Source: Microthrixaceae bacterium | Lineage (GTDB): Bacteria; Actinomycetota; Acidimicrobiia; Acidimicrobiales; Poriferisodalaceae | Assembly (NCBI GenBank): GCA_011523825.1 | Contig: WTFX01000027.1 | Location: forward strand, 124,001 to 188,000 | Direction of reading: 5' to 3' | Length of the DNA: 64,000 nt | In this document: positions 25,860-45,605 of the stretch, one piece after another | Layout of the letters: every line of letters starts with the position of its first letter | How positions within the stretch are numbered: position 1 is the first letter of the stretch | Position numbers and translations under genes: made by a program | The notes under the pieces: generated by a model | What the model saw: only the letters and a program-made list of their open reading frames with translations | Told to the model about the DNA's origin: nothing | Databases searched by the model: none

Positions 25860-26738
25860 TCAGCGACCCTTTGCTCGCCTGCGGCGCGAGGGCGTCCCGT
25901 TGAGGGCCGTCTCGCGCCAGGCCACCGTGTCGGCGATCGCATTGAAGGTGAAGACGTGCAGGCCGGCTATGGCGAGCCGCTCGGCATGAGGGGCGATCTG
26001 ATCGACCAACCCGCTCGGGTCGTAGCCGCCAGGACGCAGCATGCGGGCCACGGCCCCGGTGTTCTTGCGCAGGTAGCGCAGGGACGCTCCGACCCCCAGG
26101 CGGGTGCCGATCCGCAGCAACCGTGCCGGGTCGACCGCTCCGGGAATGCCCAGGTGCACGGGAAGGGTGAAACCGCTGTCACGCTCGGCGGCCAGCCAGA
26201 CCAGGATGGCCTTGGGATGAAAGCACATTTGGGTGGCTGCATGACCCTCAATGCCCGCCTCGGCGAGCAGCACCTGCTTGATGTGCAGCGCCTCGTGCAG
26301 CACGGCATCGGTGATGAGCGCATGTCCCTCGGGGTACGAAGTGACTCCGATGTGGGTGAGCGAGTGGTTGACCTCGCGCAGCGCCTCGAGCAGACCGACG
26401 GCGCTGTCGAACGGTCCTGCAGGGGAGGTGACATCGCCGCCGACCAGGAATATCTCGCTGAGGCCCATCGATTCGATGCGGCCCAATAGCTCTTCCAGAT
26501 GATCTCGGCTGGCCACCATGCGAGCTGCGACATGGGGCACCGGGCGATGGCCTAACGCACACAGCTCAGCTGTCAGATCCAGCGTGTCCTCGAGCGTCTT
26601 GGAAGCCGACGCTGTCACCGACACCGGCGACTGGGGGGGCAGGTACGGCAGCTGCTCGGCCAGATTGCGCAGCGGGATCAGTTCCCACTGGGCGTGCTGC
26701 AGCAGCCGACGAAGCTCGGAGACGTCCTTCAGCAACAA
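25860..26738 (-). CDS. Methylenetetrahydrofolate reductase family protein
   Basis: This is a 292-residue TIM-barrel protein. Family features are the early VSVTASASKTLEDTLDL strand-helix, HVAARMV, IFLVGGDVTSP, the GVTSYPEGHAL motif and the ATQMCFHPKAILVWL segment before LGIPGAVDP. MTHFR interconverts 5,10-methylene- and 5-methyl-tetrahydrofolate using FAD. Here, 9 bp after fhs and near a corrinoid methyltransferase operon, it probably works in the oxidative direction, turning methyl-THF from demethylation into methylene-THF. It diverges from canonical MetF, so the direction and electron acceptor are inferred. Confidence 0.8.
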   Translation of the reverse strand: MLLKDVSELRRLLQHAQWELIPLRNLAEQLPYLPPQSPVSVTASASKTLEDTLDLTAELCALGHRPVPHVAARMVASRDHLEELLGRIESMGLSEIFLVGGDVTSPAGPFDSAVGLLEALREVNHSLTHIGVTSYPEGHALITDAVLHEALHIKQVLLAEAGIEGHAATQMCFHPKAILVWLAAERDSGFTLPVHLGIPGAVDPARLLRIGTRLGVGASLRYLRKNTGAVARMLRPGGYDPSGLVDQIAPHAERLAIAGLHVFTFNAIADTVAWRETALNGTPSRRRRAKGR

Positions 26739-26747
26739 CTGCTCCGC

Positions 26748-28457
26748 TCAGCTCAGGCCGACGATGTCGCCGTCGGCATCCAAGTCGATGTGGCGGGCTG
26801 CGGGGTCACGTCCGAGACCGGGCATCGTGCGCATGTCGCCGCAGATCGGGTACACGAACCCGGCACCGACCGACGCCCGCACCTCACGCACCGGCAGTGT
26901 CCAGCCGGTCGGGGCGCCCTTGAGCGAGGCATCCGACGAGATCGACAGGTGGGTCTTGGCGATGCACACCGGCAGGTTCCCGAAGCCATTGCGCTCGTAT
27001 CCGTCGATCTCGCGGTTGGCCCGGGCGGTGTAGCTCACATCGTCGGCGCCGTACACATTGGTCGCGACAGCCCGGATCTTGTCGCGCAGTGACATGTCGT
27101 CGGGGTACAGCACCGAGAAGTCCGTCGGCTCCTCGGCCGCTTCGGCCACGGCTTCGGCCAGGTCGGCCGCGCCGGCGCCGCCGTCGGCGAAGTGGGTGCA
27201 GCGGGCCGAACGGGCACCGTACTCGGCGGCGATCTCGGCGATGGCGGCGAGGTCGGCCTCGTGGTCGCCAGGGAATTGGTTGATCGCCACCACCGGCGAG
27301 ACACCGTGCATCCGCACATTCTCGAGCTGTTTGCGGAGGTTGTCGCCGCCGGCATGGACCTCCTCCGGGTTGGCCTCGAGAAGGGCCGGCGGCAGCGGTC
27401 GCCCGGCCACGATCCGATGCTTGCCCGAGTGAGCCTTGAGGCCACGCACGGTCGCCACGATCACAGCGGCATCGGGTGAGACTCCCGAGTACCGGCACTT
27501 GATGTTGAAGAACCGCTCTGCGCCCATGTCGGCACCGAACCCGGCCTCGGTGAGCAGGAAGTCGGACGTGCCGATGCCGATCTGGTCGGCGACGATCGAG
27601 GAATTCCCGGTCGCGATGTTGCCGAAGGGACCCGTGTGCACGAGCGCCGGGGAACCCTCCAAAGTCTGCATGAGGTTCGGTTTGATGGCCTCGCGCAGGA
27701 GCACCGCCATCGACCCGGCAGCGCCGATGTCCTCTGCGGTCACCGGTTCGCCGCCCTTGGTGTAGCCCAGCACGATGCGGCCGAGCCGGGCGCGCAGGTC
27801 TGACATGGAAGTACACAGCGCGAGCGTCGCCATCACCTCCGAGGCGGCGGTGATGTCGAAGCCCGATTCGCGCGGGATGCCGTCGAGGCGACCGCCCAAT
27901 CCGATCGTGATATTGCGCAAGGCCCGGTCGTTGACATCGAGCACCCGCCGCCAGGTGATGTTGTGGATGTCGAACCCGGCCTCGTTGCCGTGGTACAGGT
28001 GAGCATCCAGCATCGCTGCGCAGAGATTGTGCGCAGCGGTCACGGCGTGCATGTCGCCAGTGAGATGCAGGTTGAACAGGTCCATCGGCACTACCTGGCT
28101 GTAGCCGCCGCCGGCCGCACCGCCCTTGATACCGAACGTGGGACCCATCGACGGCTGCCGGATGGCGATGGTGGCGGTGCGCCCGATGTGTCCGAACGCC
28201 TGCCCGAGCCCCACCGTGGTGGTCGTCTTGCCCTCGCCGAGCGGCGTCGGGGTGATGGCCGTCACCACCACGTAGCGCCCGCGGGGACGGTCAGCCATGG
28301 CATCGACGGCCTCCAGCTTGACCTTGGCCACGCCGGTGCCGTACAGCTCCAGGTAGTCCCGCGGGATGCCCGCCTCGTCTGCGATCTCGGTCAGCGGCCG
28401 GATCTGCGCAGCCGATGCAATCTCGAGATCGCTTGGAAATCCGCCTGTTGTCGCCAT
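26748..28457 (-). CDS. fhs: Formate--tetrahydrofolate ligase
   Basis: This is a 569-residue protein. The P-loop-like motif TPLGEGKTTT sits at residues 71-80, followed by TIAIRQPSMGPTFGIKGGAAGGGYSQV and the downstream LVHTGPFGNIATGNSS substrate region, all diagnostic. It catalyses the ATP-linked interconversion of formate and 10-formyl-THF. In a demethylation pathway it can run in reverse, conserving ATP and releasing formate for formate dehydrogenase. I chose ATG 28457 (GGGGGTG site upstream) over a frame extension to 28541. It leads an operon with the MTHFR-family and membrane genes and is divergent from the dimethylglycine dehydrogenase gene across a shared operator region. Confidence 0.96.
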   Translation of the reverse strand: MATTGGFPSDLEIASAAQIRPLTEIADEAGIPRDYLELYGTGVAKVKLEAVDAMADRPRGRYVVVTAITPTPLGEGKTTTTVGLGQAFGHIGRTATIAIRQPSMGPTFGIKGGAAGGGYSQVVPMDLFNLHLTGDMHAVTAAHNLCAAMLDAHLYHGNEAGFDIHNITWRRVLDVNDRALRNITIGLGGRLDGIPRESGFDITAASEVMATLALCTSMSDLRARLGRIVLGYTKGGEPVTAEDIGAAGSMAVLLREAIKPNLMQTLEGSPALVHTGPFGNIATGNSSIVADQIGIGTSDFLLTEAGFGADMGAERFFNIKCRYSGVSPDAAVIVATVRGLKAHSGKHRIVAGRPLPPALLEANPEEVHAGGDNLRKQLENVRMHGVSPVVAINQFPGDHEADLAAIAEIAAEYGARSARCTHFADGGAGAADLAEAVAEAAEEPTDFSVLYPDDMSLRDKIRAVATNVYGADDVSYTARANREIDGYERNGFGNLPVCIAKTHLSISSDASLKGAPTGWTLPVREVRASVGAGFVYPICGDMRTMPGLGRDPAARHIDLDADGDIVGLS

Positions 28458-28577
28458 GCCGTGCACCCCCACACGAGTCGAGCCCTCTACACCCTGCCAG
28501 AACCCTGTGGCACCGCTGTGCCACCGACTCCATGTCGTCAATTGCCAGGTCGTTCGGCTACTGTTCCCCTAGTTGCT

Positions 28578-28612: not shown

Positions 28613-28690
28613 AGCATTGATCCATAACAGCGATATGCGGCAGCCGTGCTGCGGCATGCTGTCGACCGGCAACAGTGGGGGATGCGAGCT

Positions 28691-31213
28691 ATGAGTGACT
28701 TCCCGGCGCGGGCAGATTGTGTCGTCATCGGTGCAGGCATCGTCGGCAACTGCCTGGTCGGCCATCTCAGCGACCTCGGCTGGACCGACATCGTGCTGCT
28801 CGACAAGGGCCCGCTGCCCAATCCTGGCGGGTCCACCGGCCATGCGTCGAACTTCATCTTCCCCGTCGATCACTCCAAGGAGATCGTCGATCTCACCGTC
28901 GACAGCCAGCACCAGTACGAGGCACTCGGTTTGCAGAACACGTGCGGCGGCATCGAAGTGGCACGCAGCCCCGAGCGCATGGAGGAATTCCGCCGCCGCA
29001 TGACTTCAGCAACGTGCTGGGGCATCGAAGCGAGGTTGCTCACGGTCGACGAGGTCGTCGAGATGGTGCCCTTCATCGACCCCGACGTCATCTTGGGCGG
29101 GTTCTACACGCCGAGCGTCTCGGCCGTGGACTCACTGGAGACGGGCACACAGATGCGCCGGCGAGCCACCGATGCGGGGCACTTGCAGACGTTCGCCAAC
29201 ACCGAGGTGCTCGACATCGAGACCGTGGCCGGACCGAACCGGCCCCGCATCTCCGCAGTGGTAACCGACCGGGGCCGCATCGAGTGCGACACGGTGGCGA
29301 TCGCCTGCGGCGTCTGGAGCCCCAAGCTCGCCCAGATGGCCGGCGCCACCATCCCGCTGACGCCTGCCGTGCACCAGATGGTCGACGTCGGCCCGTTCGA
29401 CCTGCTCGTCGAGACCAACCAGGAACTGGCCTACCCGATCGTCCGCGACATGGACACCTTCTGCTACGAGCGCCAGTCGGCCGGCTCCATGGAGGTGGGC
29501 AGCTACGCCCACCGGCCGATTCTGCACCGTGTGGAGGACATCCCCTCCAACTCCGAAGCGGCGCTCAGCCCGACCGAGATGCCGTTCACGCCCGATGACT
29601 TCGACGAACAGCTCGAGCAGGCCATCGAACTGATGGAGTTTCTGGGTGACGGCGAGATCAAGTACGCCATCAACGGCCTGCTCTCGCTGACACCCGATGC
29701 CTCGCCGGTCTTGGGTCCGACACCAGAGGTCGAGAATCTGTGGTCGGTGGCGGCGGTGTGGGTCAAGGAAGGTCCTGGTGTGGGGCGCCTGATGGCCGAA
29801 TGGATGACCTACGGCTATCCCCGCATGACCGATCCGCACGGTTCGGACGTCACGCGCTTCTACCCCCAGGATCGCAACGTCATCCACATCGAGACCCGGG
29901 CCGACGAGCACTTCAACAAGACCTACGGCATCGTGCATCCTCGCGAGCAGTGGGCGACGCGCCGCAACCTGACCTGCGGCCCCGCCAAGGCCCGCACCGA
30001 TGACCTCGGCGCCTTCTACTTCGAGGCCGGCGGCTGGGAGCGTCCGCACTGGTACGAATCGAACGCTGACCTCGTCGAGCACCACGGCATCGAGGGCCGT
30101 ACCCACGAGTGGGACGCCCGCTGGTGGAGCCCCATCACCGATGCCGAGCACCTGCACCTGCGCGAGCACTGCGGGCTGGTGGACATCTCGCCGTTCCAGG
30201 TGTTCGAAGCATCAGGCCCAGGCGTGGTGCCCTACATCGAGAAGATGGTGGTCAACAAATGCGACCTACCGGTCGGGCGCTCGATCTACACCCCGGTGCT
30301 CACCGCCGACGGCGGCTTCCGTTCCGACCTCACCATCGTGCGCCTGTCCGAGGATCGCTTCCGCATAGCCACCGGCGCATTCGACGGCGGTCGCGACGAG
30401 TACTGGTTCCGCCACAACCTGCCCGCCGACGGCGTGCACTTCGAGAATCGCACCGAGGCGCTGGCCACCTACGGCGTGTGGGGTCCCAACGCCGTCGCAC
30501 TGCTGCAGACGCTGACCGAGACCGACCTGTCCCAGGAGGCCTTCGGCTATGGCCAGGTGCGCGATGGGTTGCTCTCGGGGATCCCGGTGCAGATGTTCCG
30601 CATCTCCTACGTGGGCGATGCAGGCTTCGAGATCTACTGCTCCACGAGCGCAGGGCTGGCTCTGTGGGACGCCATCACCCAGGCCGGGCGGGAATACAGC
30701 CTGCGACCGGTCGGTGCCGGGGTGTACGGCACCACCGGGCGACTCGAGAAGGGCTACCGGCTCATGGGCGCCGAACTCGAGAGCGACTACAACCCGGTCG
30801 AGGCGGGCCTGGCCCGGCCGCGGGTGAAGGCTGCCGATTTCATCGGCAAGGAGGCCTACCTGGCAGCCCGGGAAGCACCGCCCGCAGCCCAGCTCGCCAT
30901 GCTGCGCTTCGAGAGCCTGCGCTGTGCTGAGGGCTACGACCGCTTCCCGATGGGGGCAGGCAACGAGCCGGTGCTGACGCCAGCGGGGGAGCGGATCGTC
31001 GACTCGCACGGCAGGGTCAGCCGCGTCACCACCGCGGGCAACGCGCCATCGCTCGGCGCCTACCTGGCCATGGCCTACCTGCCGCCTGAGCTCGCCGCCG
31101 TGGGCACTGAGCTGTCGGTCATGTACCAGCATGAGCGGTATCCGGTGACAGTGGCGGCGACGGGTGCGAATCTCGCGCTGTTCGATCCCGACGACAGCCG
31201 CATGAAGGCCTGA
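28691..31213 (+). CDS. Dimethylglycine/sarcosine dehydrogenase-like FAD oxidoreductase with GcvT domain
   Basis: This is an 840-residue, three-part protein. The N-terminal FAD-binding DAO domain begins CVVIGAGIVGNC, with a candidate covalent-flavin His in GSTGHASN. A linker domain (FAO_M type) follows around residues 375-430, and the C-terminal GcvT/aminomethyl-folate domain has GLVDISPFQVFEASG and YVGDAGFEIYC. Such enzymes oxidatively demethylate dimethylglycine or sarcosine, hand the carbon to THF as methylene-THF, and pass electrons to ETF. Both ETF subunits follow directly. ATG 28691 is preferred over the 28646 extension because of the GGGG site before it. A tandem operator lies upstream. 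Confidence 0.9.
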   Translation: MSDFPARADCVVIGAGIVGNCLVGHLSDLGWTDIVLLDKGPLPNPGGSTGHASNFIFPVDHSKEIVDLTVDSQHQYEALGLQNTCGGIEVARSPERMEEFRRRMTSATCWGIEARLLTVDEVVEMVPFIDPDVILGGFYTPSVSAVDSLETGTQMRRRATDAGHLQTFANTEVLDIETVAGPNRPRISAVVTDRGRIECDTVAIACGVWSPKLAQMAGATIPLTPAVHQMVDVGPFDLLVETNQELAYPIVRDMDTFCYERQSAGSMEVGSYAHRPILHRVEDIPSNSEAALSPTEMPFTPDDFDEQLEQAIELMEFLGDGEIKYAINGLLSLTPDASPVLGPTPEVENLWSVAAVWVKEGPGVGRLMAEWMTYGYPRMTDPHGSDVTRFYPQDRNVIHIETRADEHFNKTYGIVHPREQWATRRNLTCGPAKARTDDLGAFYFEAGGWERPHWYESNADLVEHHGIEGRTHEWDARWWSPITDAEHLHLREHCGLVDISPFQVFEASGPGVVPYIEKMVVNKCDLPVGRSIYTPVLTADGGFRSDLTIVRLSEDRFRIATGAFDGGRDEYWFRHNLPADGVHFENRTEALATYGVWGPNAVALLQTLTETDLSQEAFGYGQVRDGLLSGIPVQMFRISYVGDAGFEIYCSTSAGLALWDAITQAGREYSLRPVGAGVYGTTGRLEKGYRLMGAELESDYNPVEAGLARPRVKAADFIGKEAYLAAREAPPAAQLAMLRFESLRCAEGYDRFPMGAGNEPVLTPAGERIVDSHGRVSRVTTAGNAPSLGAYLAMAYLPPELAAVGTELSVMYQHERYPVTVAATGANLALFDPDDSRMKA

Positions 31214-31223
31214 GGGCTCGCCG

Positions 31224-32006
31224 GTGCGCATCCTGGTTTGCGTGAAGCGGGTGCCTGCTGTCGGCTCGCGCATCAACGTCACCGACGACGGCCAGCAGGT
31301 CGACACTGCCCACTTGGGCTTCACCACCAGCCCGCACGAGGAATGCGCGTTGGAGGAAGCCGCCCAGATCATCGAGCGACTTGACGGCGATGACCATGCC
31401 GTCGTGGTGCTCACACTGGGTCCCGAGGCGTCCGCTGAGCAGCTGCGCTATGCGGCCAGCGTCGGCGGCAGCGAATTCGCACTGGTGATCGCAGATGGCG
31501 GCCTCGACTGGGATCCTCAGCGAACGGCAGTCGCGATCACCTCCGCCGTGCGGGAGCTCGAGGCCGGCGGGGGCCAGTTCGACCTGATCCTGTTCGGCAA
31601 CGAATCTGCCGACGGGGGCAACTTTCAGGTGGGCATCCGGGTCGCACGTGCGCTCGGACGGCCGATCGTGAACGGCATCAAGGGCATTGACCCCCATGAG
31701 CGAGGGTTCATCGCGCGCCGCGAGACCGACGCCGGCTACGAGGTGTACGAACTCGAGGCTCCCTGCGCGCTCGGTGTCAAGGAAGGCATCAACCTGCCTC
31801 GCTACCCGACCATGAAAGGGCGCCTCGCCTCGCGCAAGGCCCAGATCCAGGTGCTCGACTGCGCCGCCGATGCTGACGCCGGCGGGCAGTCGCGGATTCG
31901 GCTGCATCGCCCGCCCGAGCGTGCCAGCACCACGGTGCAGCTCGGTGACAGCGCCGCGGCGGCACCCGCGGTGGTGGACCTGCTGGACGAGTTGGGCGTG
32001 CTGTGA
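31224..32006 (+). CDS. etfB: Electron transfer flavoprotein beta subunit
   Basis: This is a 260-residue protein beginning MRILVCVKRVPAVGSRI, with the ETF-beta recognition region APCALGVKEGINLPRYPTMKGR near residue 180. It carries AMP and pairs with EtfA to accept electrons from flavoprotein dehydrogenases. It starts at GTG 31224, 10 bp after the dimethylglycine dehydrogenase gene, so its electron donor is almost certainly that enzyme. The stop overlaps the etfA start (GTGA, 32003-32006). An ETF-quinone oxidoreductase must be encoded elsewhere. Confidence 0.94.
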   Translation: MRILVCVKRVPAVGSRINVTDDGQQVDTAHLGFTTSPHEECALEEAAQIIERLDGDDHAVVVLTLGPEASAEQLRYAASVGGSEFALVIADGGLDWDPQRTAVAITSAVRELEAGGGQFDLILFGNESADGGNFQVGIRVARALGRPIVNGIKGIDPHERGFIARRETDAGYEVYELEAPCALGVKEGINLPRYPTMKGRLASRKAQIQVLDCAADADAGGQSRIRLHRPPERASTTVQLGDSAAAAPAVVDLLDELGVL

Positions 32007-33046
32007 GCGGCATTGCCGTCCTGGTCGACCACGACCGTGGTGTGCCCTCCGGCGGTGCCCTGGAGGCCCTGACTTCGGCCCGCGCGCTCGCCGCGGACAT
32101 GAGTGCCGACCTCGATGCCGTCATCCTGGGCGACGGCGACCTGTTCGATGCACATGGCGCGGACCTCGTTGCCATCTGCGCCGCCTACGGCGCCGCTGCG
32201 GTGCATTGCGGCCGCCATCAGTTCCTGGCCGACTACGGACCGGACGCCTGGGGTGCAGCACTCGCAGAGTTCGTCGAGACTGCGGCGCCTCTTGCCGTGG
32301 TTGCGGCAGGCACCGATCGGGGTGCCGAGGCCATGGCCCAGCTCGCTGCCCGCACCAACCTCCCGCTCGTCGCCAACTGCGTGAACGTGTCGCCCAAGGG
32401 CTCACCGGCTGATGCGTCGACTGCTCCCTCAGCCGGCGGGGCGTGGCATGTCACCCGCATCCAGTGGGGCGGCTCGCTGCTCGAGGACGTGACCCTCACC
32501 TCAACCCTGCCGCTGCTCACCATTGCGCAGCACTCCATCGAGGCGGAGCCACGCGAAGACGGTCCCCTCCCAGCGGCCGTTGCCGATTTCGAGCCCGACT
32601 TGGGGCCTGAAGTGCAGCAGACTCTGGTCCGCGATCGGGTGACCCTTGCCGAGGGCGTCACACTGTCCACCGCGCCGGTCGTGGTGTCGGGCGGCCGAGG
32701 CGTCGGCTCAGCAGACGGGTTTGCCCCGCTCGAGGAGCTTGCGGAACTGCTCGGCGGCCGCGTCGGCTGCTCGCGAGCGGTGACCAACAATGGCTGGCGC
32801 TCGCACGCAGACCAAGTCGGGCAGACCGGCACCCGAATCGCCCCGGAGATCTACATTGCCTGCGGCATCTCGGGCGCGATCCAGCATTGGGTCGGCGCCA
32901 TGGGCTCGAAGAACATCCTGGCGATCAACATCGACCCGGAGGCCAACATGGTCACCAAGGCGGGCTACGCCGTCATTGCCGACCTGCACGAGGTCGTGCC
33001 CGCGATCTGCGACGAGATCCGGCGGCGCCGCGACCGCCCCAGCTGA
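32003..33046 (+). CDS. etfA: Electron transfer flavoprotein alpha subunit
   Basis: This is a 347-residue protein whose C-terminal FAD-binding domain is unmistakable: VVSGGRGVG, then PLEELAELLGGRVGCSRA, QVGQTGTRIAPEIYIACGISGAIQH and the final AINIDPEANM. It binds FAD and completes the ETF dimer that carries electrons from dimethylglycine dehydrogenase to the quinone pool. Translation is coupled to etfB by a 4-bp overlap. It is the last gene of the operon, convergent with the IclR gene 10 bp away. Confidence 0.95.
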   Translation: MSGIAVLVDHDRGVPSGGALEALTSARALAADMSADLDAVILGDGDLFDAHGADLVAICAAYGAAAVHCGRHQFLADYGPDAWGAALAEFVETAAPLAVVAAGTDRGAEAMAQLAARTNLPLVANCVNVSPKGSPADASTAPSAGGAWHVTRIQWGGSLLEDVTLTSTLPLLTIAQHSIEAEPREDGPLPAAVADFEPDLGPEVQQTLVRDRVTLAEGVTLSTAPVVVSGGRGVGSADGFAPLEELAELLGGRVGCSRAVTNNGWRSHADQVGQTGTRIAPEIYIACGISGAIQHWVGAMGSKNILAINIDPEANMVTKAGYAVIADLHEVVPAICDEIRRRRDRPS

Positions 33047-33055
33047 ACGCCCGGG

Positions 33056-33811
33056 CTAGGTCGGCAGCGGCGCCCGGCCGGACAGGTGCTCGGCCAGATT
33101 CGACGCGGCCTCGATCAGCACGAGGCCGATGTCGTGGGTGCTATTCGGATCGGGGAAACGGTACGCCGGGCCGTGAACATGCAAGGCCGCCACCACCGCT
33201 CCCTCCTCGTTCAATACCGGCGCAGCCGCCGAGTTGATCCCGATGGCGAACTCCTCGTACACCCAGACGTACCCGGCGCTGGCCACTTGGCTGAGCCGCG
33301 TCTTCAGCGCCTCGGCATCGACCATGCTGTTCGCGGTCGTCGCCTCGAGACCGGCACTCATGTAGTCGTCGAGTGCTTCCGGGCTGAGGTGGGCCAGGTA
33401 CACGAGCCCCGACGGCACCAAGTGCATCGGGCAGTACTCGCCTGTCCATGAGCGCACCTGCACCTCCGACTCGGGCTCGACCTGGTCGAGGTAGTACACC
33501 GTCCGATCAGCACGAACGCTCACCCCGGCTGTCTCGCCGACCTGGTTGACCAGACTGTGCAGGTGCGGGCGCGCTGCGGCCAACAGACTCCGATCGGCTC
33601 CAGCAGCGCCGATGATGTCGATGAGCCCTTGCCCGAGCCGGTAATCGCCGCCCGCGTCGTCCTGGACGACGGCGTCGACCGCTTCGAGCGACGTCAGCAG
33701 CCGAGCCACGGTGCTCTTGGGCAGCCCGACGTGATCGGCAACATCGGTGACGCCCTGCGGTCCGACGGCCAATGCCCGCAGCACGGCGAATGCACGAGAG
33801 ATCGACTGCAT
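33056..33811 (-). CDS. IclR-family transcriptional regulator
   Basis: This is a 251-residue protein. The N-terminal winged helix (MQSISRAFAVLRALAVG, then GVTDVADHVGLPKSTVARLLTSLEA) and the C-terminal IclR effector domain (GIDIIG-like turn, VEPESEVQVRSWTGEY, GINSAAAPVLNEEGAVVAALHVHGP) are both intact. I chose ATG 33811, which has a GGAG site; the longer frame runs into the operator region. It lies between etfA and the formate dehydrogenase operon and has a tandem operator in its own promoter. It is the natural candidate to control the three operator-bearing promoters. Its effector is unknown; a methylated amine is plausible. Confidence 0.9.
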   Translation of the reverse strand: MQSISRAFAVLRALAVGPQGVTDVADHVGLPKSTVARLLTSLEAVDAVVQDDAGGDYRLGQGLIDIIGAAGADRSLLAAARPHLHSLVNQVGETAGVSVRADRTVYYLDQVEPESEVQVRSWTGEYCPMHLVPSGLVYLAHLSPEALDDYMSAGLEATTANSMVDAEALKTRLSQVASAGYVWVYEEFAIGINSAAAPVLNEEGAVVAALHVHGPAYRFPDPNSTHDIGLVLIEAASNLAEHLSGRAPLPT

Positions 33812-33864
33812 CGGCTCCACGGTAGCCCGCGGCCAGCTCGGACCTGTCAGTTGAGCGTGATTTT

Positions 33865-33899
33865 GTGCCGTATTGTGGAACTGTTCTGCAATGCGGAAC
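33865..33899. promoter_or_regulatory. Tandem palindromic operator, copy B (iclR / formate dehydrogenase)
   Basis: The two dyads GTGCCGTATTGTGGAAC (33865-33881) and GTTCTGCAATGCGGAAC (33883-33899) are separated by one T, exactly as in copies A and C. It lies 54 bp before the iclR start and 122 bp before the formate dehydrogenase start, so it can serve both. Beyond it (33900-34021) an AT-richer stretch near 33940-33965 may hold the formate dehydrogenase promoter. Confidence 0.75.
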
Positions 33900-34021
33900 G
33901 CTGGCTCGTTCATGCAACGCACGCGAGATGTAGTCAGGGTGAAATAATTCTCATCACAGTAAAGGCGCCCGCGGCAACGTAGAATTCGAGGTCACGGGAC
34001 GTATGCGACCGGGGAGGGGCG

Positions 34022-36052
34022 ATGCCGCGGGGGACCGGTGCCCGACGAAACAGTGCACGATCGGGGGGGCGTCAGGCACCTCTCGCACGACTCGACACGC
34101 CCCTGGTACGCGACGGCGGTGTCTTGCGCCCGGCGAGCTGGGACGATGCGCTCGACCGGGCTGCATCGGGGCTGCGGGCGGCTACCCAGCAGCACGGTGC
34201 CGGCGGCGTCGGCATGTTCTCCTGCTCCAAGAGCACCAACGAGATGAACTACGCAGCCCAGAAGTTCATGCGGACGGTGCTGAAGTCCAACAACATCGAT
34301 TCCTGTAACCGCACCTGACACGCTCCGTCGGTCGTCGGTCTGGCGACAGTGTTCGGACTCGGGGGCGGAACGTGCTCCTACCAGGAGATCACTGAGACTG
34401 ATGTGATCCTGCTGTGGGGATCGAATGCCCGCGAGGCACACCCCATCTTCTTCCATCACCTGCTGCGGGGTCTCGACAACGGCGCGGCCATGTACGCCGT
34501 GGATCCCCGCCGCACCTCCTCAGCCGAGTTCGCCGACGTGTGGCTCGGCCTCGACGTCGGCACAGACATCGCGCTGTCCAACACGGTGGCTCGCGAGATC
34601 ATCGCCCGCCGAATGCACAACCAGTCCTTCATCGATCATGCGACAACAGGGTTCGATGCCTACGCAGAATCGGTAGAGCCGTTCACCCTCGACGAGGGCG
34701 AGCGGCTCACCGGAGTCCCGGCAGAGGCCATCGCGGAGATGGCTCACACGTACGCCACAGCCGACCGAGCGCAGATCCTGTGGACCCTGGGCATCACGGA
34801 GCACCACACGGCGGTCGAGAACGTGCTCTCGCTGTGCAACTTGGCGCTGCTGACCGGTCATGTCGGTCGGCGCGGTTCGGGCCTGGTGCCTCTGCGAGGC
34901 CAGAACAACGTGCAGGGCGGCGGCGACATGGGTGCTCTGCCTGATCGGCTGCCCGGGTTCCAACCGCTCACCGACCCGCAGGTCCGGGCTCGCTACGAGA
35001 GCACCTGGGGTTGCGAGCTGAATCCCGTCCCGGGAAAGCACCTCACCGCGATGTTCGACGCCATGGAAGCTGGAGAACTGCGGGCTCTCTATGTCATCGG
35101 GGAGAACCCGGCAGACTCCGAAGCCAATGTGGCGCACGCCCGCAAGCTGCTCGAAGGGCTGGATCTGCTGGTCGTTCAGGACATCTCGCTGACACGCACC
35201 GCGCGGATGGCTGATGTGGTGCTGCCCGCGGCCGCGGGTTGGGCCTCCAGCGAGGGCACTGTCACCTCCTCCGAGCGGCGTGTCCAGCGGGTGCGTGCCG
35301 CGGTGCCCCCCCAGGGTGACGCACGCGACGACGTGCACATCATCAGCGAGTTGGCAGCGCACATGGGCACCCAGTGGCCGGCCACGTCGGCGCAGGAACT
35401 GTGGGACGAGATGCGTTCGCTGTCGCCGCTGCATGGCGGCATGAGCTGGGAACGCCTCGAGGCGAGCGGCGGCCTGCAGTGGCCCTGCCCCCACGACGAC
35501 CATCCCGGCACCGAGTTCCTGCATAGCTGGCTCTGGGAACCCGACCTCGACGGTCGTGCGCCGGCACCGTTCTCGGTCGTCGTCCACCGTCCTCCCGCGG
35601 AGGCGTTGAGCGAGCAGTTCCCGTTGCGCCTGACCACCGGCCGGGTACTCGACTCATACAACACCGGCGCCCAGTCCGCCGGCTACTCCTCGCCGATCCG
35701 TTCCGGTGACGCCATCGAGATCAGCCCTGCCGACGCAGCGGATCTCGGGCTTGCCGAAGGCGACACCGTTCGTGTGAGCTCACCGCGGGGCTCGGTCGAT
35801 ATGCATGTGCATGTCACCGATCGCCTTCCGACAGGCCTGGTCTTCACGACGTTCCATTTTCCGGAGCTCGTGGATGCGAATCTGCTCACGAACGATGCCT
35901 GGGACGTCCGCAGCGGCACGGCGGAGTTCAAGGCAGCGGCTGTGCGCATCGACCCGTTGCCGGCTGCCACAGCCGCCACCGGCGGCACATTCGGCACAGC
36001 CGCCGCTGGCAGCACATCGGGCGTTGCAGCGGCAGGTGGCGCCGGTGGCTGA
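34022..36052 (+). CDS. Selenocysteine formate dehydrogenase, molybdopterin catalytic subunit (UGA at 34316 read as Sec)
   Basis: The gene is one 676-residue frame interrupted only by TGA at 34316-34318 (codon 99). The context NNIDSCNRT-U-HAPSVVGL is the active site of molybdenum/tungsten formate dehydrogenases, where Sec or Cys binds the metal and the next residue is His. An SECIS hairpin follows. The enzyme oxidises formate to CO2. Further family blocks are EITETDVILLWGSNAREAHP, LGITEHHTAVENVLSLCNLALLTG, GQNNVQGGGDMG and the C-terminal molybdopterin-dinucleotide domain (FPLRLTTGRVLDSYNTG). The usual N-terminal CxxCxxxC [4Fe-4S] domain is absent and is encoded instead by the gene at 37826. 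A GGGGAGGGG ribosome-binding site supports ATG 34022. The last ~30 residues are an odd Ala/Gly/Thr-rich tail. Confidence 0.9.
34316..34347 (+). other. Selenocysteine UGA codon and SECIS hairpin
   Basis: TGA (34316-34318) is followed by a 6-bp stem, GTCGTC (34331-34336) with GGCGAC (34342-34347), closing the pentaloop GGTCT (34337-34341). GGUCU is the apical loop of the E. coli fdhF SECIS recognised by SelB, and the 18-nt distance from UGA to the loop equals the fdhF spacing as I recall it. The hairpin lies inside the coding sequence, as in other bacteria. No selA, selB, selD or tRNA-Sec gene was seen in the window. Confidence 0.85.
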
Positions 36053-37829
36053 CCTGCACTTCTCCGATGCGGAGCCCACCGCATCGGAGCGACGAGCGGT
36101 GCTCGCTGCACTCAGCGTCACCTCCGAGCGCGATGGCGCCGTCGTTTTCGAGCATCCGCGCGTTGTGCGCGCAGGGATGCAACGGCGCAGGCAGCTGCGG
36201 CACCAGTTGCTGCCCGCACTGCACGCGCTCCAGCGCGAGGCCGGGTGGATCTCGCCGGGCGGCCTCAACTTCGTCGGCCGGACGCTGGGCGTGCCGCCGG
36301 CGGAGGCCTACGGCGTGGCCACCTTCTACGAGATGTTCCGCACCGAGGCCCCCGCCCACGAGCTCAGCGTCCGCCATGTCTGCGTCGATCCCATCTGCGC
36401 GCTGGCCGGCGCCGCGCCGCTGGCAGAGCACCTGCGCTCTCAGGGTCACGCCGTGCACGAGGGCCCATGCCTCGGGCAGTGCGAACGGGCACCGGCGACC
36501 TTCATCCAGGGCCGCCGCGAGCCCGACCGCGTCCCCGCAGACGGCAGCGGTCCTGACTCGCTGCTGGTGAGCCTCACGGCGACGACGCCCGAAGCGCCCA
36601 GCCTGCTGCGGCACATGATCGGAAGGGATCGGGACCACAGCGATCCCGTATCCATACAGGTGTACCGGGAGCGAGGTGGGGGAGCAGCCCTGGATGCAGC
36701 TCTGCGACTCGGAACCGACGAAGTCATCGCCCAGGTGACCGCAGCCGGGCTGTCGGGGCGCGGCGGGGCCGCCTTTCCGACTGGCATCAAATGGCGAGCT
36801 GTGGCCGACGGCGACGGCCCCAAGCACGTCGTGGCCAACATCGACGAATCTGAGCCGGGAACGTTCAAGGATCGGCTGCTCTGCGAGCTGGATCCCTTGG
36901 CCATCATCGAGTCCATCGCTGTGGCCGGCTTGACCGTCGGGGCCGAGCACGGCTGGATCTACATACGCGGCGAATACCCGCTGGCCACCCAACGCCTCCG
37001 GCACGCCATCGCGCAAGCCCGCAGCGCCGGCTGGCTTGGCGATGATGCGGCTGGGTCCGGGCAGCCATTCGACATCGAGTTGCGCAGGGGCGCCGGCGCA
37101 TACATCTGCGGCGAGGAAACCGCCCTGTTCAACTCGCTCGAAGGCTTCAGGGGGGAGCCCCGCAACAAGCCGCCGTTCCCCACCACCCACGGATTGTTCG
37201 GCCGCCCGACGGTGGTGAACAACCCAGAGACGCTGCTCAACGTGAACGAGATCCTGCGCATCGGTCCTGAGGCGTACCGCAGCGTCGGAACCGAGGGCTC
37301 GCCGGGCACGAAGCTGTTCTGCCTGTCCGGCCACGTCGGCCGGCCTGGGCTCTACGAAGCTCCTTTCGGTGTATCGTTGGGCGAGCTGCTGGAGCTGGCC
37401 GGAGGTGTGCAGGGCACGCTGGCCGCAGTGCTGCTCGGCGGCGCTGCGGGCAGCTTCGTCGGACCCGACGCGGAGGCGCTGCCGCTGTCCCTGGAAGACA
37501 CCCGTGCCGCCGGCACGACGCTCGGCTCGGGTCCAGTGATGGTCTTCAACGACACTGCCGACATGAGCGCCGTGATCGAGCGACTGGCCAAGTTCTTCCG
37601 CGACGAGTCCTGCGGACAGTGCGTTCCGTGCCGCGTCGGCACGGTCCGCCAGCACGAGCTGGTGACGCAGATCCGTCGGGCAGGCAGCCCGACGGAGCCT
37701 CAGCGTGAGCTGCTCGGCGACATCGCAGATGCCATGGGCGATGCTTCCATCTGCGGTCTCGGCCATACTGCGGCCTCGGCGGTGCTGTCGGGGATGCGGC
37801 TGGGCTTGCTGGAGGCTCAAGAGTCATGA
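36045..37829 (+). CDS. NAD-linked formate dehydrogenase diaphorase subunit, NuoE-NuoF fusion
   Basis: This is a 594-residue fusion of two proteins that are usually separate. The NuoE/FdsG-like part (about residues 1-165) has the [2Fe-2S] cysteines 113, 118, 142 and 146. The NuoF/FdsB-like part follows with the FMN/NADH motifs GLSGRGGAAFPTG and GAGAYICGEETALFNSLEG, and the [4Fe-4S] motif SCGQCVPCRVGT with a distal Cys in ICGLG. It should pass electrons from formate oxidation to NAD+. I chose GTG 36045, which overlaps the catalytic gene's stop by 8 nt; GTG 36036 is an alternative. The stop overlaps the next gene's start (ATGA). Confidence 0.92.
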   Translation: MADLHFSDAEPTASERRAVLAALSVTSERDGAVVFEHPRVVRAGMQRRRQLRHQLLPALHALQREAGWISPGGLNFVGRTLGVPPAEAYGVATFYEMFRTEAPAHELSVRHVCVDPICALAGAAPLAEHLRSQGHAVHEGPCLGQCERAPATFIQGRREPDRVPADGSGPDSLLVSLTATTPEAPSLLRHMIGRDRDHSDPVSIQVYRERGGGAALDAALRLGTDEVIAQVTAAGLSGRGGAAFPTGIKWRAVADGDGPKHVVANIDESEPGTFKDRLLCELDPLAIIESIAVAGLTVGAEHGWIYIRGEYPLATQRLRHAIAQARSAGWLGDDAAGSGQPFDIELRRGAGAYICGEETALFNSLEGFRGEPRNKPPFPTTHGLFGRPTVVNNPETLLNVNEILRIGPEAYRSVGTEGSPGTKLFCLSGHVGRPGLYEAPFGVSLGELLELAGGVQGTLAAVLLGGAAGSFVGPDAEALPLSLEDTRAAGTTLGSGPVMVFNDTADMSAVIERLAKFFRDESCGQCVPCRVGTVRQHELVTQIRRAGSPTEPQRELLGDIADAMGDASICGLGHTAASAVLSGMRLGLLEAQES

Positions 37830-38770
37830 GTTCCGGAAACGGCAGCACCACATCGCAGGTCACGGTCAGCATCGACGGACATGAGGTGACGGTGCCGCTG
37901 GGCCAGACCATCCTGGCTGCATGCACTGCTGCCGGTGTGGACACACCGACAATCTGCTGGGCGCCCAACCTCACGCCGGTGAACGTGTGTCGTGTCTGCG
38001 TGGTGGAGCTGGAAGGCTCCCGCACGCTCGTGCCTGCCTGTTCACGGCCCGCCGAAGACGGCATGCAGATCAGCACAGATTCTGAGCGGGTGCGCCACAG
38101 CAGGCGCATGGTGCTGGAGTTCCTGGACTCGGCCAATGATCTGTCCCAAGCGACAGAGATCACAGCGTGGTCCCAGCACTACGGTGCCGATGCGGGCCGT
38201 TATGGCTCTGCAGTGAATGACGCCGCCGAGGTCGAGATTTCCCAGGTGGACGATCCCGTGCGGATTCAGGACGATCTCTATATCCGCGCCTATGACCGTT
38301 GCGTGCTGTGCTACAAGTGCGTCGAGGCGTGCGGCGACGATGCCCAGCACACCTTTGCCATAGCGGTGGCGGGGCGAGGTTTCGACGCCCGTATCCGTAC
38401 CGAGTACGACGTCGAACTCCCGGAGAGCGCGTGTGTCTATTGCGGCAATTGCGTCGCGGTGTGTCCCACCGGTGCCTTGCAGTTCCGTACCGAGTTCGAT
38501 CTGCGGGCGGTGGGCGAGTGGCGACCCGATGACCAGACGGTCACCCGCACGGTGTGCTCGTACTGCGGAGTGGGATGCAATCTCGAGCTGCATACCCAGG
38601 ACGATCAGATCGTGAAGGTGACGTCGCCGGCAGATCATTCGGTGACGAGCGGCCACCTGTGCATCAAGGGCCGATTCGGCTGGCAGTACGTCCACGCGCC
38701 GGCCTTCGAACCGCCTGCGGCTGACACGTCCGCCTCAGAAGGCCCTTCTCCCGACAACACAGGGTCCTAG
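37826..38770 (+). CDS. Formate dehydrogenase iron-sulfur subunit carrying the detached N-terminal domains of the catalytic subunit
   Basis: This 314-residue protein is built like the N-terminus of a FdhA/FdsA catalytic subunit. A plant-type [2Fe-2S] domain uses Cys44, 55, 58 and 72. Two [4Fe-4S] motifs use Cys159/162/165/169 and Cys203/206/209/213. Finally there is a Mo-enzyme [4Fe-4S] domain with CSYCGVGC (244, 247, 251) and Cys279 in CIKGRFGWQYV. In ordinary enzymes that last domain leads straight into the sequence that opens the catalytic gene at 34022, so the chain is split exactly at this boundary. The NuoG-type His-Cys3 cluster motif is missing. It is the last enzyme gene of the operon. 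Confidence 0.9.
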   Translation: MSSGNGSTTSQVTVSIDGHEVTVPLGQTILAACTAAGVDTPTICWAPNLTPVNVCRVCVVELEGSRTLVPACSRPAEDGMQISTDSERVRHSRRMVLEFLDSANDLSQATEITAWSQHYGADAGRYGSAVNDAAEVEISQVDDPVRIQDDLYIRAYDRCVLCYKCVEACGDDAQHTFAIAVAGRGFDARIRTEYDVELPESACVYCGNCVAVCPTGALQFRTEFDLRAVGEWRPDDQTVTRTVCSYCGVGCNLELHTQDDQIVKVTSPADHSVTSGHLCIKGRFGWQYVHAPAFEPPAADTSASEGPSPDNTGS

Positions 38771-41021: not shown

Positions 41022-42554
41022 CTACACGATGGCGTCGGGCTCTTCGGCTTTGCGCCGGGCGATGTAGTCGCACAGCTCGGCGTCGATTGCGTCGTCGATG
41101 GGCGGCGGCTCGTAGTCGGCGAGCATCTGCTTCATCAGGCGGTTGGCTCGCTGGGCCGCATCGAGCGAGCCCTCGTCGGACCATTGCTCGAAGCTGTTGT
41201 TGTCGGCAATCGACGATTGGTAGAAGGCGGTCTCGAAATTGGCCAGTGTGTGCGGATGCCCCAAGAAGTGGTCGCCGTGGGGGTTCGTCGTGAACGCCTC
41301 GACCGCCTGGCCGTTGTCGGACATGTCCACGCCCCTGGCGTACACCTCCATCATGCCGAGCTGGTCGGCGTCCATCAGCAGCTTCTCGTAGCTCAGCGTC
41401 AGCCCGCCTTCGAGCCAGCCCGCTGCATGCAGTACGAAGTTCACCCCTGCAGCCATCGTCGGCAGCAGCGTCGAGGCCGATTCGTAGGCCGCCTGTGCAT
41501 CAGGCGCCTTGGAAGATGTGAACTGCCCGCCCGACCGAAATGGCACGCCGACCCGTCGCGCCAGCGCGGCCATGACGTAGATCGCCAAGCCTGCCTCGGG
41601 TGTGCCGAACGTGGGCGCACCGGTGGCCATCGACATCGACGACGCGAACGTGCCGAAGATCACCGGCGCCCCCGGACGCACCAGCTGGCAGAACGCCATG
41701 CCGGACAGCGCTTCAGCCAGCGCCTGGGCCGCCAGCGCCGCCACCGTGACCGGTGACATGGCTCCGGCCAGTATGAACGGCGAGATCACGCATGCCTGGT
41801 TGTGCTGCGCGTACACCTCGGCCGCGCCAAGCATGGTGGCGTCCCAGCGCAGCGGCGACGATGCGTTGATGAGGCTGGTCAGCACGGTGCGATCGCTCAG
41901 GTCGCCGCCGAAGGCGATGCGGCAGAGTTCCACCGAATCGGCTGCGCGCTGGGCCGCCGTCACCGAGCCCATCAGCGGCTTGTCGCTGTAGCGCAAATGC
42001 GCGTACACCATGTCGAGGTGGCGTTTGTTGACCGGCACGTCCACCGGCTCACAGACCGTGCCGCCGCTGTGGTGAAGGTGGGGAAGCATCCAGGTCAGCT
42101 TCACCACCTGCTCGAAGTCGCCGAGAGTGGCGTACCGGCGCCCGGCATCGAGGTCTGTGACGAACGGCGAGCCGTAGTTGGGGGCGAACACGGTGGCGTC
42201 GCCGCCGATCGGCACTGAACGCGCCGGGTTGCGCGCATGCTGGAGATAGGTGGCCGGCGCCGTGGCCTGGACGATCTCGCGGCACATGCCCCGCGGGAAG
42301 CGCACCATCTCGCCGTCGACATCTGCGCCGGCGTCACGCCACAGCTCGAGCGCGCGGGGGAAGTCCTGGAAGGCGACTCCTACCTCGGACAGGATCGTCT
42401 CGGCGTTCTCCTCGATCTGGATCAGGCCATCGGCGTCGAGCACGTTCACCGGCGGCAGTGTCCGTTGTACGTGGGTGTTGAACGCCATATCTGCCGTTGC
42501 CCGCTGCGCCTGACGAGCCGCGCGGCCGCCTCCTCGCCGTCGTCGCTCGTTCAT
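41022..42554 (-). CDS. MttB-family corrinoid methyltransferase (non-pyrrolysine, MtgB-like)
   Basis: This is a 510-residue protein of the trimethylamine methyltransferase family. Typical blocks are DGLIQIEENAETILSEVGV, the long TIM-barrel core with DKPLMGSVTAAQRAADSVEL, and FGTFASSMSMATGAPTFGTPEAGL. The frame contains no in-frame amber codon, so pyrrolysine is not used; such homologues (MtgB and relatives) demethylate quaternary amines such as glycine betaine, proline betaine or carnitine. The methyl group would go to the corrinoid protein encoded upstream. The start overlaps the stop of the activator gene (ATGA, 42551-42554). With dimethylglycine dehydrogenase in the same island, glycine betaine is the best substrate guess. 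Confidence 0.88.
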   Translation of the reverse strand: MNERRRRGGGRAARQAQRATADMAFNTHVQRTLPPVNVLDADGLIQIEENAETILSEVGVAFQDFPRALELWRDAGADVDGEMVRFPRGMCREIVQATAPATYLQHARNPARSVPIGGDATVFAPNYGSPFVTDLDAGRRYATLGDFEQVVKLTWMLPHLHHSGGTVCEPVDVPVNKRHLDMVYAHLRYSDKPLMGSVTAAQRAADSVELCRIAFGGDLSDRTVLTSLINASSPLRWDATMLGAAEVYAQHNQACVISPFILAGAMSPVTVAALAAQALAEALSGMAFCQLVRPGAPVIFGTFASSMSMATGAPTFGTPEAGLAIYVMAALARRVGVPFRSGGQFTSSKAPDAQAAYESASTLLPTMAAGVNFVLHAAGWLEGGLTLSYEKLLMDADQLGMMEVYARGVDMSDNGQAVEAFTTNPHGDHFLGHPHTLANFETAFYQSSIADNNSFEQWSDEGSLDAAQRANRLMKQMLADYEPPPIDDAIDAELCDYIARRKAEEPDAIV

Positions 42555-44665
42555 GATTCCTCGCTCATCGGGGCCGCTCGCCGTCGTCGGGTGCGGTGGT
42601 GGGGACTCGAAGTTCTACGGGATGGGCGGGGCAGGTCCACCGCCGCAGCAAGCAGCGGGTTGGGTGCCGTGGCATGGGGGAGTGCCATGGCTGCCACGAA
42701 CAGCTCCTGGAATCGGGGCTCGGTGGCAGTCTCGATCTTGCGGATGCTGCGGACCACTTGCTCCATCTCGGCCCGCTGACTCCCCGACAGCAGCGCGCGC
42801 ACAGCTCCGGTGCCTGCTGCGTTGCCCACCGACCGCACCTCGTCCGGGTCGCAGTCGCCGATGAGTCCGAGCACCATCGCCCGTACCGGATCAATGTGCG
42901 CGCCGAAGGCTCCAGCGAGCTGCACACGATCAGGGGCCGCGATGCCGGCGTGCTCGCGCAGGAGGTCGATGCCGGCGCGCAGCGCCGCTTTCGCCAGCTG
43001 GATGGCTCGCACATCATTCTGGGTGATGGTGATCGTGGGTCCGTCCGTACCCTCGGGCGGCTCGTACAGCAGGAATGACGACGTCCGGCCATCGGAGATC
43101 ACACGCGACGCCCGCACGCCCTCTGCCGGGGATGCTGCAACAACCCCATCTGGCGACAGCACGCCGGCCAGATACATCTCGGCGATGACCTCGATGATGC
43201 CGGAGCCGCAGATTCCAGTGACACCTGCGGCCGCACTGCGAGCGCCGGCGGCGACTCGCCGTTCGACCGCCTCCGCGAAGCCGGGTTCGTCGGACCACAG
43301 GTCACAGCCGATGACACGCACCCGAGGAGTCCAGGTCGCCGGATCGATGCGCACGCGCTCGATCGCTCCAGGCGTCGCTCGCTGGCCGCAGCTGATCTGC
43401 GCGCCCTCGAATGCGGGCCCGGTCGGGCTCGACGCCGCCCACAGGCCGTCCGAGTTCCCCAGCACGATCTCGGCATTGGTGCCCACGTCCACCAGCAGGG
43501 TGACCGCTTCGTCGCGATGCGGCCCTCCAGCGAGCACTGCCGCTGCAGTGTCGGCACCCACATGACCGGCGATCGCGGGCGCGACGTAGACGCGAGCTGA
43601 TGGGCACGGAAGTTCCAGCTCCGGCCCGTCGACCTCGACACTGGCGTCGGTCGCCAAGGTGAACGGTGCCTGCCCGAGCGGGGTCGGGTCGATGCCGAGG
43701 GCAATGTGGACCATGATCGGATTTCCGACCAGCACCACCTCGAGCACGGCGTCTGGCTCAGCACCGGCATCGGAACACAGCTCGGAGATCAGCGCCGCGA
43801 GCGAGTCGCGGACGAGCGCAGTGAGCTCCCGGGCGCCGCCGGGGTTCATCATCACGTAGGAGACCCGGCTCATCAGGTCCTCGCCGAGGCGGATCTGCGG
43901 GTTCATGCGGCCTGCGGAAGCCAGCACGTCACCGCTGTGAAGATCAACTAGGTGGCCCGCGATCGTGGTGGAGCCGATGTCGATCGCAACGCCGAGTGCC
44001 GCCGTCGCGACGCCAGGCCATACCGCCGTCACCATGCCGGTGCGATTGGGGCGCTCAGGTCCGCTCCAGCGAACGGCAACCGTGACCAGCCTGCCACCAG
44101 TGTCGTCGGGCGAGCCGGCAGCGACTGACGCGTGGAGTCCCGCAAGTGCCCCGGGCAAGATGCCGGCCAGATGAACGCCCCATTCGTCGGCCACGCAGTC
44201 GATCACGACCTGCGCCAGCCCGCGGCGCTCGTCGAGCGTCGGCGGCGGCACGGTGACGGCATGCAGCGTTGCCAGCGGGTCGAGCGCTATGTCGCCCACG
44301 TCGACCGTCTTGCGCACCACCGGACCGTGCAGCTGGCTCTCCGGCGGCACATCCACTACGACGTCGGCCTGCACACGCGCCTGGCAGCCCAGCCGGGCCC
44401 CCGCATGCAGCGGGCGTCGGCCCTCATATGCGGCTTCGGTAGCGCTGGGCGAGCTGAGCGATTCGGAGCCAGCAGTGATGGCCCACTTGGGAAACGAACC
44501 CACTGACGGCACGACCTGGCAGCGGCCGCAGATGCCACGCCCACCGCACACGCTGTCGAGATCCACGCCGAGTTCACGAGCGGCATCGAGCACCGTGGTG
44601 CCCGCGCTCACGTTGCCAGCGCGTCCCGCCGGGGTGAACACCACCCTGACCGCGGCCGTCGGCAC
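42551..44665 (-). CDS. RACo-type ATP-dependent reductive activator of corrinoid proteins
   Basis: This is a 704-residue protein. An N-terminal plant-type [2Fe-2S] domain uses Cys40, 46, 49 (CGGRGICGRC) and 94, a linker follows, and then a DUF4445/ASKHA ATPase with VAIDIGSTTIAGHLVDL, LLVDVGTNAEIVLGN and GICGSGIIEVIAEM. RACo-type enzymes re-reduce inactive Co(II) corrinoid to Co(I) using ATP, which methyltransferase systems need. I chose GTG 44665 because the upstream gene's TGA (44678-44676) is followed by GGAG and then this GTG at proper spacing; the frame to 44806 overlaps that gene. It has a basic Ser/Arg-rich C-terminal tail. Confidence 0.9.
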   Translation of the reverse strand: MPTAAVRVVFTPAGRAGNVSAGTTVLDAARELGVDLDSVCGGRGICGRCQVVPSVGSFPKWAITAGSESLSSPSATEAAYEGRRPLHAGARLGCQARVQADVVVDVPPESQLHGPVVRKTVDVGDIALDPLATLHAVTVPPPTLDERRGLAQVVIDCVADEWGVHLAGILPGALAGLHASVAAGSPDDTGGRLVTVAVRWSGPERPNRTGMVTAVWPGVATAALGVAIDIGSTTIAGHLVDLHSGDVLASAGRMNPQIRLGEDLMSRVSYVMMNPGGARELTALVRDSLAALISELCSDAGAEPDAVLEVVLVGNPIMVHIALGIDPTPLGQAPFTLATDASVEVDGPELELPCPSARVYVAPAIAGHVGADTAAAVLAGGPHRDEAVTLLVDVGTNAEIVLGNSDGLWAASSPTGPAFEGAQISCGQRATPGAIERVRIDPATWTPRVRVIGCDLWSDEPGFAEAVERRVAAGARSAAAGVTGICGSGIIEVIAEMYLAGVLSPDGVVAASPAEGVRASRVISDGRTSSFLLYEPPEGTDGPTITITQNDVRAIQLAKAALRAGIDLLREHAGIAAPDRVQLAGAFGAHIDPVRAMVLGLIGDCDPDEVRSVGNAAGTGAVRALLSGSQRAEMEQVVRSIRKIETATEPRFQELFVAAMALPHATAPNPLLAAAVDLPRPSRRTSSPHHRTRRRRAAPMSEES

Positions 44666-44675
44666 CAGGGCTCCG

Positions 44676-45605
44676 TCAGCCGGTGCGAGCGCGGCGGCCG
44701 CCCCGTCGTCGGCCTCCAGCTGCGGCCCGGCCGTTCGCTGGCGTGTCCTCGCCCATGGCGCTGCGGTCGCGGTGCTCGGCAATCCATGCGGCGCAATTCG
44801 TGTCATTGCCTGCGAGCACGTCGCCGGCCATGACCGCCGCCTTCACGTCGGCGTGGAGCGGGTTCATGATGGCAGAAGTCATGCCGGCACCGATGGCCAT
44901 GGCCAGGAACGTGCCAGTGACCACGTGTCGATTGGGCAGGCCGAAGCTGACATTCGACGCACCGCAGGTGGTGTTGACGCCGAGTTCGCTGCGCAGTCGC
45001 TGCACGAGCTGGAACACCTGCCGACCCGCCGTTGGCATAGCACCGATGGGCATCACCAGCGGATCCACCACCACGTCGTGCGACGGGATGCCGTAGTCGG
45101 CGGCAGCGCTCACGATGCGCCTGGCCACCTCAAATCGGACATCGGGGTCTTCGCTGATGCCGGTCTCGTCGTTGGATATGGCCACGACAGCGGCGCCGGC
45201 GCGTGCAACCAGCGGCAGCACTCGCTCCATGACCTCCGCCTCGCCAGTGACTGAGTTGATGAGCGGCTTGCCGACGTAGGCATCGATGCCGGCCTCGAGT
45301 GCTTCAATGATCGAGGAGTCGATGCTGAGCGGCACGTCGGTGACCGACTGCACGAGCTTGACAGCCGAGGCCAGCAGCGCGGGCTCGTCGGCAAGCGGCA
45401 CTCCGGCGTTGACGTCCAGCATGTGAGCTCCCGCGGCCACCTGCGCCAGGGCATCGGCCTCCACCCGGCTGAAATCGCCCTCCTTCATCTCCGCGGCCAG
45501 CAGCTTGCGGCCCGTGGGGTTGATGCGTTCGCCGATCATCACGAACGGCCGATCGAAGCCGATCACGACTTCCCGGGTAGCGGAGCTGATGACGGTGTCG
45601 GTCAC
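44676..45605 (-). CDS. Pterin-binding methyltransferase (methylcorrinoid:tetrahydrofolate, MtgA-like)
   Basis: This 309-residue pterin-binding TIM barrel is of the MetH-domain/AcsE type. Signatures are VMIGERINPTGRKLLAAEM, HMLDVNAG, LSIDSS, INSVTGE and the late TTCGASNVSFGLPNR. It should move the methyl group from the methylated corrinoid protein to tetrahydrofolate, feeding the MTHFR-family enzyme and Fhs. The GTG start (45605) overlaps the DUF1638 stop. The C-terminal 25 residues are Arg/Gly-rich and not conserved in the family. Confidence 0.9.
   Translation of the reverse strand: MTDTVISSATREVVIGFDRPFVMIGERINPTGRKLLAAEMKEGDFSRVEADALAQVAAGAHMLDVNAGVPLADEPALLASAVKLVQSVTDVPLSIDSSIIEALEAGIDAYVGKPLINSVTGEAEVMERVLPLVARAGAAVVAISNDETGISEDPDVRFEVARRIVSAAADYGIPSHDVVVDPLVMPIGAMPTAGRQVFQLVQRLRSELGVNTTCGASNVSFGLPNRHVVTGTFLAMAIGAGMTSAIMNPLHADVKAAVMAGDVLAGNDTNCAAWIAEHRDRSAMGEDTPANGRAAAGGRRRGGRRARTG

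Follow-up and report, generated by a model that had tools for sequence, protein, structure and literature searches.

An internal UGA very probably read as selenocysteine in a three-gene formate dehydrogenase operon from the Acidimicrobiia

A gene resembling the catalytic subunit of a formate dehydrogenase (FDH) is interrupted by a TGA codon in the window, by which we mean the whole 64,000-nucleotide stretch of DNA analyzed here. This raises the question of whether the codon ends the protein, is translated as an ordinary amino acid, or is decoded as selenocysteine (Sec), and which reaction the resulting enzyme would serve. We are nearly certain that the locus encodes an NAD-linked molybdenum (or tungsten) FDH made from three genes, in which the internal UGA and a hairpin downstream of it specify Sec at residue 99.

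Reading frame and catalytic chain

The frame from 34022 to 36052 on the forward strand (676 amino acids) encodes the catalytic Mo-bisPGD subunit of the enzyme, here called FdhA-C. It holds two stop codons only, the internal TGA at 34316–34318 and the terminal TGA at 36050. The ATG start at 34022 is preceded by GGGGAGGGG, and both the start and the purine-rich stretch upstream of it are conserved in the corresponding loci of relatives (L091–L094). The protein matched the Pfam families Molybdopterin (1.1e-65) and Molydop_binding (1.3e-25). Its parts upstream and downstream of the TGA aligned jointly to one Mo-bisPGD oxidoreductase, the homology being unbroken across the codon. A preliminary description of this DNA had proposed that a single in-frame TGA splits an otherwise continuous frame, and the stop count, together with equal GC3 on the two sides of the codon (0.79 before and 0.80 after), confirmed this.

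The residues around the internal stop read NRT-TGA-HAPSVVGL. In phmmer alignments, residue 99 paired with the Sec (X in the PDB sequence) of Escherichia coli FDH-H, where the context is CARV-Sec-HGPSVAGL, with the Sec (again X in the PDB sequence) of an F420-linked FDH, and with a Cys of the hydrogen-dependent CO2 reductase. The preliminary description had placed the TGA at the metal-ligand position and called for an alignment of the recoded protein with FdhF; that alignment, which sets residue 99 opposite the Sec of FDH-H, is in agreement with this placement. We therefore annotate 34316–34318 (forward strand) as a UGA codon decoded as Sec (Sec99), based on the alignment with the Sec of known FDHs and on the TGA found in homologues.

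Three-gene operon, split alpha subunit, and predicted role

The start of the second gene (36045–37829, forward strand, 594 amino acids) overlaps the fdhA stop. Its product, FdhB, is a fusion of NuoE and NuoF and represents the NADH/FMN/Fe-S electron-transfer subunit (Complex1_51K, 1.6e-41; NADH_4Fe-4S, 1.4e-20; 2Fe-2S_thioredx, 1.3e-19). The third gene (37826–38770, forward strand, 314 amino acids) encodes FdhA-N, a HoxU-like Fe-S (2Fe-2S/4Fe-4S) subunit that ends in a Molybdop_Fe4S4 domain (Fer2_4, 5.5e-22; Molybdop_Fe4S4, 5.5e-21), a domain that normally lies at the N terminus of FdhA. When compared with the Fdh-alpha model TIGR01591 (672 positions), FdhA-C covered positions 52–672 with 629.7 bits and did not reach the single-chain score of 666.25 bits; positions 1–50 corresponded to residues 242–291 of FdhA-N, a separate protein. 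The earlier identification of a Sec-containing FDH is supported, with the correction that 34022–36052 encodes only part of an alpha subunit, the Fe4S4 domain of which resides in the gene two places downstream.

The gene order catalytic subunit, NuoEF, Fe-S subunit was found in 71 of 80 named loci of relatives; in the other 9, the available stretch lacked a match to at least one of the two partners, and most of these stretches end near the operon. More distant Sec FDHs (L203, L209, and L210) carry the Fe4S4 part directly ahead of the catalytic part, and the division of the alpha subunit therefore marks this subfamily. The location of the Fe4S4 domain on a HoxU-like protein was also conserved across Acidimicrobiia relatives and other actinobacterial genomes.

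A Mo-bisPGD domain, NuoE/NuoF, and an Fe-S chain encoded in one operon are what defines an NAD-linked Mo FDH, and the domain set fits formate oxidation with NAD reduction as the predicted activity. In the assembled enzyme, which would comprise all three products, the HoxU-like subunit would supply the Fe4S4 domain and the NuoE/NuoF fusion would reduce NAD. A divergently transcribed IclR-family gene (33056–33922, reverse strand; IclR_C, 1.5e-30; HTH_IclR, 2.5e-14) is a candidate regulator of the operon by position only. On this side of the operon lie genes for an MTHFR-like protein (25860–26738), formate-tetrahydrofolate ligase (26748–28541), a sarcosine oxidase/GcvT-like protein (28646–31213), and ETF subunits (31224–33046). 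On the other side are an MttB-family methyltransferase (41022–42554), a corrinoid activase-like protein (42551–44806), a pterin-binding protein (44676–45605), and a DUF1638 gene (45602–46513) that adjoins the methyltransferase/corrinoid genes (window 41022–46513). The MttB-family frame is open without an internal TAG, and the methyltransferase is therefore probably not pyrrolysine-dependent.

A Sec-containing FDH could instead act mainly as a CO2 reductase or use an acceptor other than NAD, and among PDB entries it is indeed the FdhF of a hydrogen-dependent CO2 reductase that the catalytic part matches best. We consider this unlikely, given the adjacent NuoE/NuoF fusion with its FMN-binding domain and the methyl-group oxidation neighborhood; moreover, a hydrogenase catalytic subunit was not seen in the operon. 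We favor NAD-linked formate oxidation in the service of formate disposal: the enzyme would oxidize formate arising from the demethylation of methylated amines or betaines, most likely that released by the surrounding folate/corrinoid demethylation genes.

Decoding of the UGA and the downstream hairpin

The genome (3.3 Mb in 31 contigs, 95% complete) encodes a tRNA-Sec with the anticodon TCA (Rfam, 66.3 bits), SelA (389.9 bits), SelB (275.2 bits, above the family cut-off), and a Sec-type SelD (359.8 bits, above the cut-off), as well as FdhD. All four components that the preliminary description had expected of the host were therefore recovered by the genome search. Its expectation that selenoproteins are uncommon in this group proved incorrect, as out of 296 genomes in the class about 96 carry a homologue with an in-frame TGA at no less than 58% identity (a count taken from the match table). 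All 50 class genes compared have the TGA at exactly the Sec99 codon, and both the TGA codon and the GGTCT loop described below recurred in 80 of 80 named loci, nearly all from metagenome-assembled genomes labeled Acidimicrobiia, Acidimicrobiales, or Acidimicrobiaceae. A named isolate, Ilumatobacter nonamiensis (L123), is also among these relatives, from which the class of the window is probably Acidimicrobiia. Among the homologues in which the codon at this position was read, nothing besides TGA or a Cys codon was found, and hence no sister species with the other kind of sense codon that had been named beforehand as an argument against Sec. The selA gene was present in 92 of the 96 genomes with a Sec FDH compared with 109 of the 200 others in the class (odds ratio 19, Fisher p 9e-15, with the sets compared by hand and kinship uncorrected).

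Immediately downstream of the UGA we annotate a SECIS element (34322–34359, forward strand) composed of an apical stem, a loop, and a lower helix, based on the comparison of relatives and a subthreshold Rfam match. The apical stem GUCGUC/GGCGAC (34331–34336 paired with 34342–34347) has 6 bp and begins 12 nt past the UGA; it carries the pentaloop GGUCU at 34337–34341, 18 nt past the UGA. This is exactly the hairpin described previously, and the claim that its loop distance equals that of E. coli fdhF agrees with the fdhF sequence, which has GGTCTG at the identical offset; we compared this sequence directly, a limited literature search for details of the E. coli SECIS loop having given no result. 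In the lower helix, GCUCC at 34322–34326 faces 34355–34359, where the window has GGACU instead of GGAGC, leaving the helix partly broken.

The folding energy of the single stem-loop showed no significant difference from shuffled sequences (z = +1.19), and the Rfam search of the window at gathering score gave no match. The family SECIS_3 (RF01989) aligned to 34313–34371 with 21.1 bits (E 0.014) and did not reach its gathering score of 63 bits, and no SECIS family was found at E up to 1 when nine related loci were searched together. In the comparison of relatives, the 11 pairs of both helices were kept at 97.4% over 46 distinct sequences (window included), a level attained by 0 of 500 shuffles. 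A compensatory change from C-G to G-C occurred at columns 18–30 in four sequences, and two sequences had both-sided changes at columns 9–42. Because relatedness inflates such pairing counts, they weigh less than the comparison with Cys forms given below. All 50 class genes have GGT and CTG as their loop codons, although in the remainder of these genes GGT accounts for only 18% of Gly codons and CTG for 37% of Leu codons. These two codons (106 and 107) had zero synonymous entropy in the 50 genes, and the four lowest values among conserved four- and six-fold codons were those of codons 104, 106, 107, and 108, with codon 101 also very low.

Natural Cys forms served as a control. Four large-genome actinobacteria of the same phylum, outside the class (L199–L202), have the same three-gene split operon, with a catalytic part 58–59% identical to that of the window, and carry TGT or TGC where the window has TGA. 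Their loop codons are GGG CTG, GGA CTG, or GGA CTC, so that the GGUCU loop is lost, and the 6-bp stem is reduced to 3 to 5 pairs. The selA gene was missing from three of these four genomes and present in 13 of 13 Sec genomes of the same search, counting as present the selA of genome G316, which is in two pieces that each score under the family cut-off. These data show that the hairpin is under selection at synonymous sites and that this selection is lost in the Cys forms. A covariance model of the hairpin (R1) separated the forms incompletely, with 34–51 bits for Sec forms outside the split family and 15–49 bits for Cys forms, an overlap that probably arises because the score is governed mainly by the coding sequence common to both.

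An in-frame UGA at a Sec/Cys position, a genome that holds tRNA-Sec, SelA, SelB, and SelD, and a hairpin immediately downstream of the UGA that is conserved beyond coding need are the hallmarks of a SelB-decoded bacterial selenoprotein. From the presence of the machinery, the conserved TGA and loop, and the Cys forms that lose the loop, we conclude that the TGA at 34316 is very probably read as Sec in a formate-oxidizing enzyme, with its SECIS just downstream. The hairpin 12 nt downstream would direct SelB with Sec-tRNA-Sec to insert Sec at this codon, and the free-standing Mo-bisPGD subunit would use Sec99 as its metal ligand.

Some bacteria read UGA as Trp or through near-cognate tRNAs, and the codon could accordingly stand for another residue, such as Trp or Cys, or reflect general UGA recoding. 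Such a reading is extremely improbable here: UGA also functions as a stop in this organism, being the terminal codon of this very gene (36050), and tRNA-Sec and SelB are present. Furthermore, non-Sec relatives have Cys at the position, as expected for Sec/Cys exchange, and the hairpin codons are constrained in the TGA forms only. We give equally little credence to a pseudogene or a sequencing or assembly error, in which the TGA would be a true stop in a broken gene: the stop does interrupt the frame, and translation table 11 yields two open reading frames, but the TGA recurs throughout the class and named-locus counts given above, is kept across genera, and is followed by a sequence in which conservation and codon use persist.

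Comparison with known formate dehydrogenases

The window's enzyme shares with E. coli FDH-H (FdhF, PDB entry 1aa6) the position of its predicted Sec metal ligand in the alignment and a GGUCU loop at the same distance from the UGA. FDH-H, which is not NAD-linked, has its Fe4S4 domain within one continuous chain, whereas the alpha subunit of the window is split; in addition, the predicted fdhF stem has an unpaired U, whereas that of the window is continuous. The set of HoxU-like Fe-S, Fe4S4, Mo, NuoE, and NuoF domains is shared with FdsABG-type NAD-linked FDHs such as PDB entry 6tg9, residues 308–931 of whose alpha chain match the window's catalytic part. The 6tg9 alpha subunit is one long chain of 958 amino acids in contrast to the split found here. 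FdsABG-type enzymes have Cys rather than Sec, with NuoE and NuoF as separate subunits.

In subunit composition the enzyme resembles FDH3 of Actinomycetospora chiangmaiensis DSM 45062, which consists of FdhA3 (640 amino acids, with Sec), FdhB3 (614), and FdhC3 (316). FDH3 has been described as NAD-dependent and located in the cytoplasm, and the organism requires selenium (selenite) to remove formate (PMC7176365). The window likewise encodes three subunits of similar length (676, 594, and 314 amino acids) with Sec in the catalytic chain, although in another organism and another metabolic context. FDH3 probably belongs to the same subfamily, an assignment based on its subunit lengths and description rather than its sequence; the main-text passages on FDH3 that we compared do not mention a split of domains.

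The alpha subunit of FDH and SelD are reported to be the most widespread bacterial selenoproteins (PMC5029168). As FDH3 is also published, the present finding is ordinary in kind: the enzyme is of a common and already described kind in the group, and its mild oddity is a catalytic chain encoded as two genes. A limited literature search that combined Acidimicrobiia with Sec FDH or selenoproteins returned nothing relevant. We raise only tentatively the idea that the split-alpha Sec FDHs form a distinct, widespread actinobacterial subfamily, undescribed as such, in which the Fe4S4 domain has moved onto the HoxU-like subunit and the Sec chain might be loaded with Mo cofactor and exchanged independently of the electron wire.

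Sec decoding is indicated as common in Acidimicrobiia, and gene callers that treat UGA as a stop will report broken formate dehydrogenases in this class. The Cys versions of the operon offer a natural comparison for the demands that a SECIS makes on coding sequence.

Apart from the FDH, SelA was found in 201 of the 296 class genomes. Many of these are about 1 Mb in size, come from one genus (g66), and do not appear in the class-wide FDH match table. The selD gene of the window's own genome (L020 1501–2451; C28:31140–32090, reverse strand) contains one in-frame TGA near its start, in a Gly-Sec-Ala-Cys-Lys context, suggesting that SelD is probably itself a selenoprotein.
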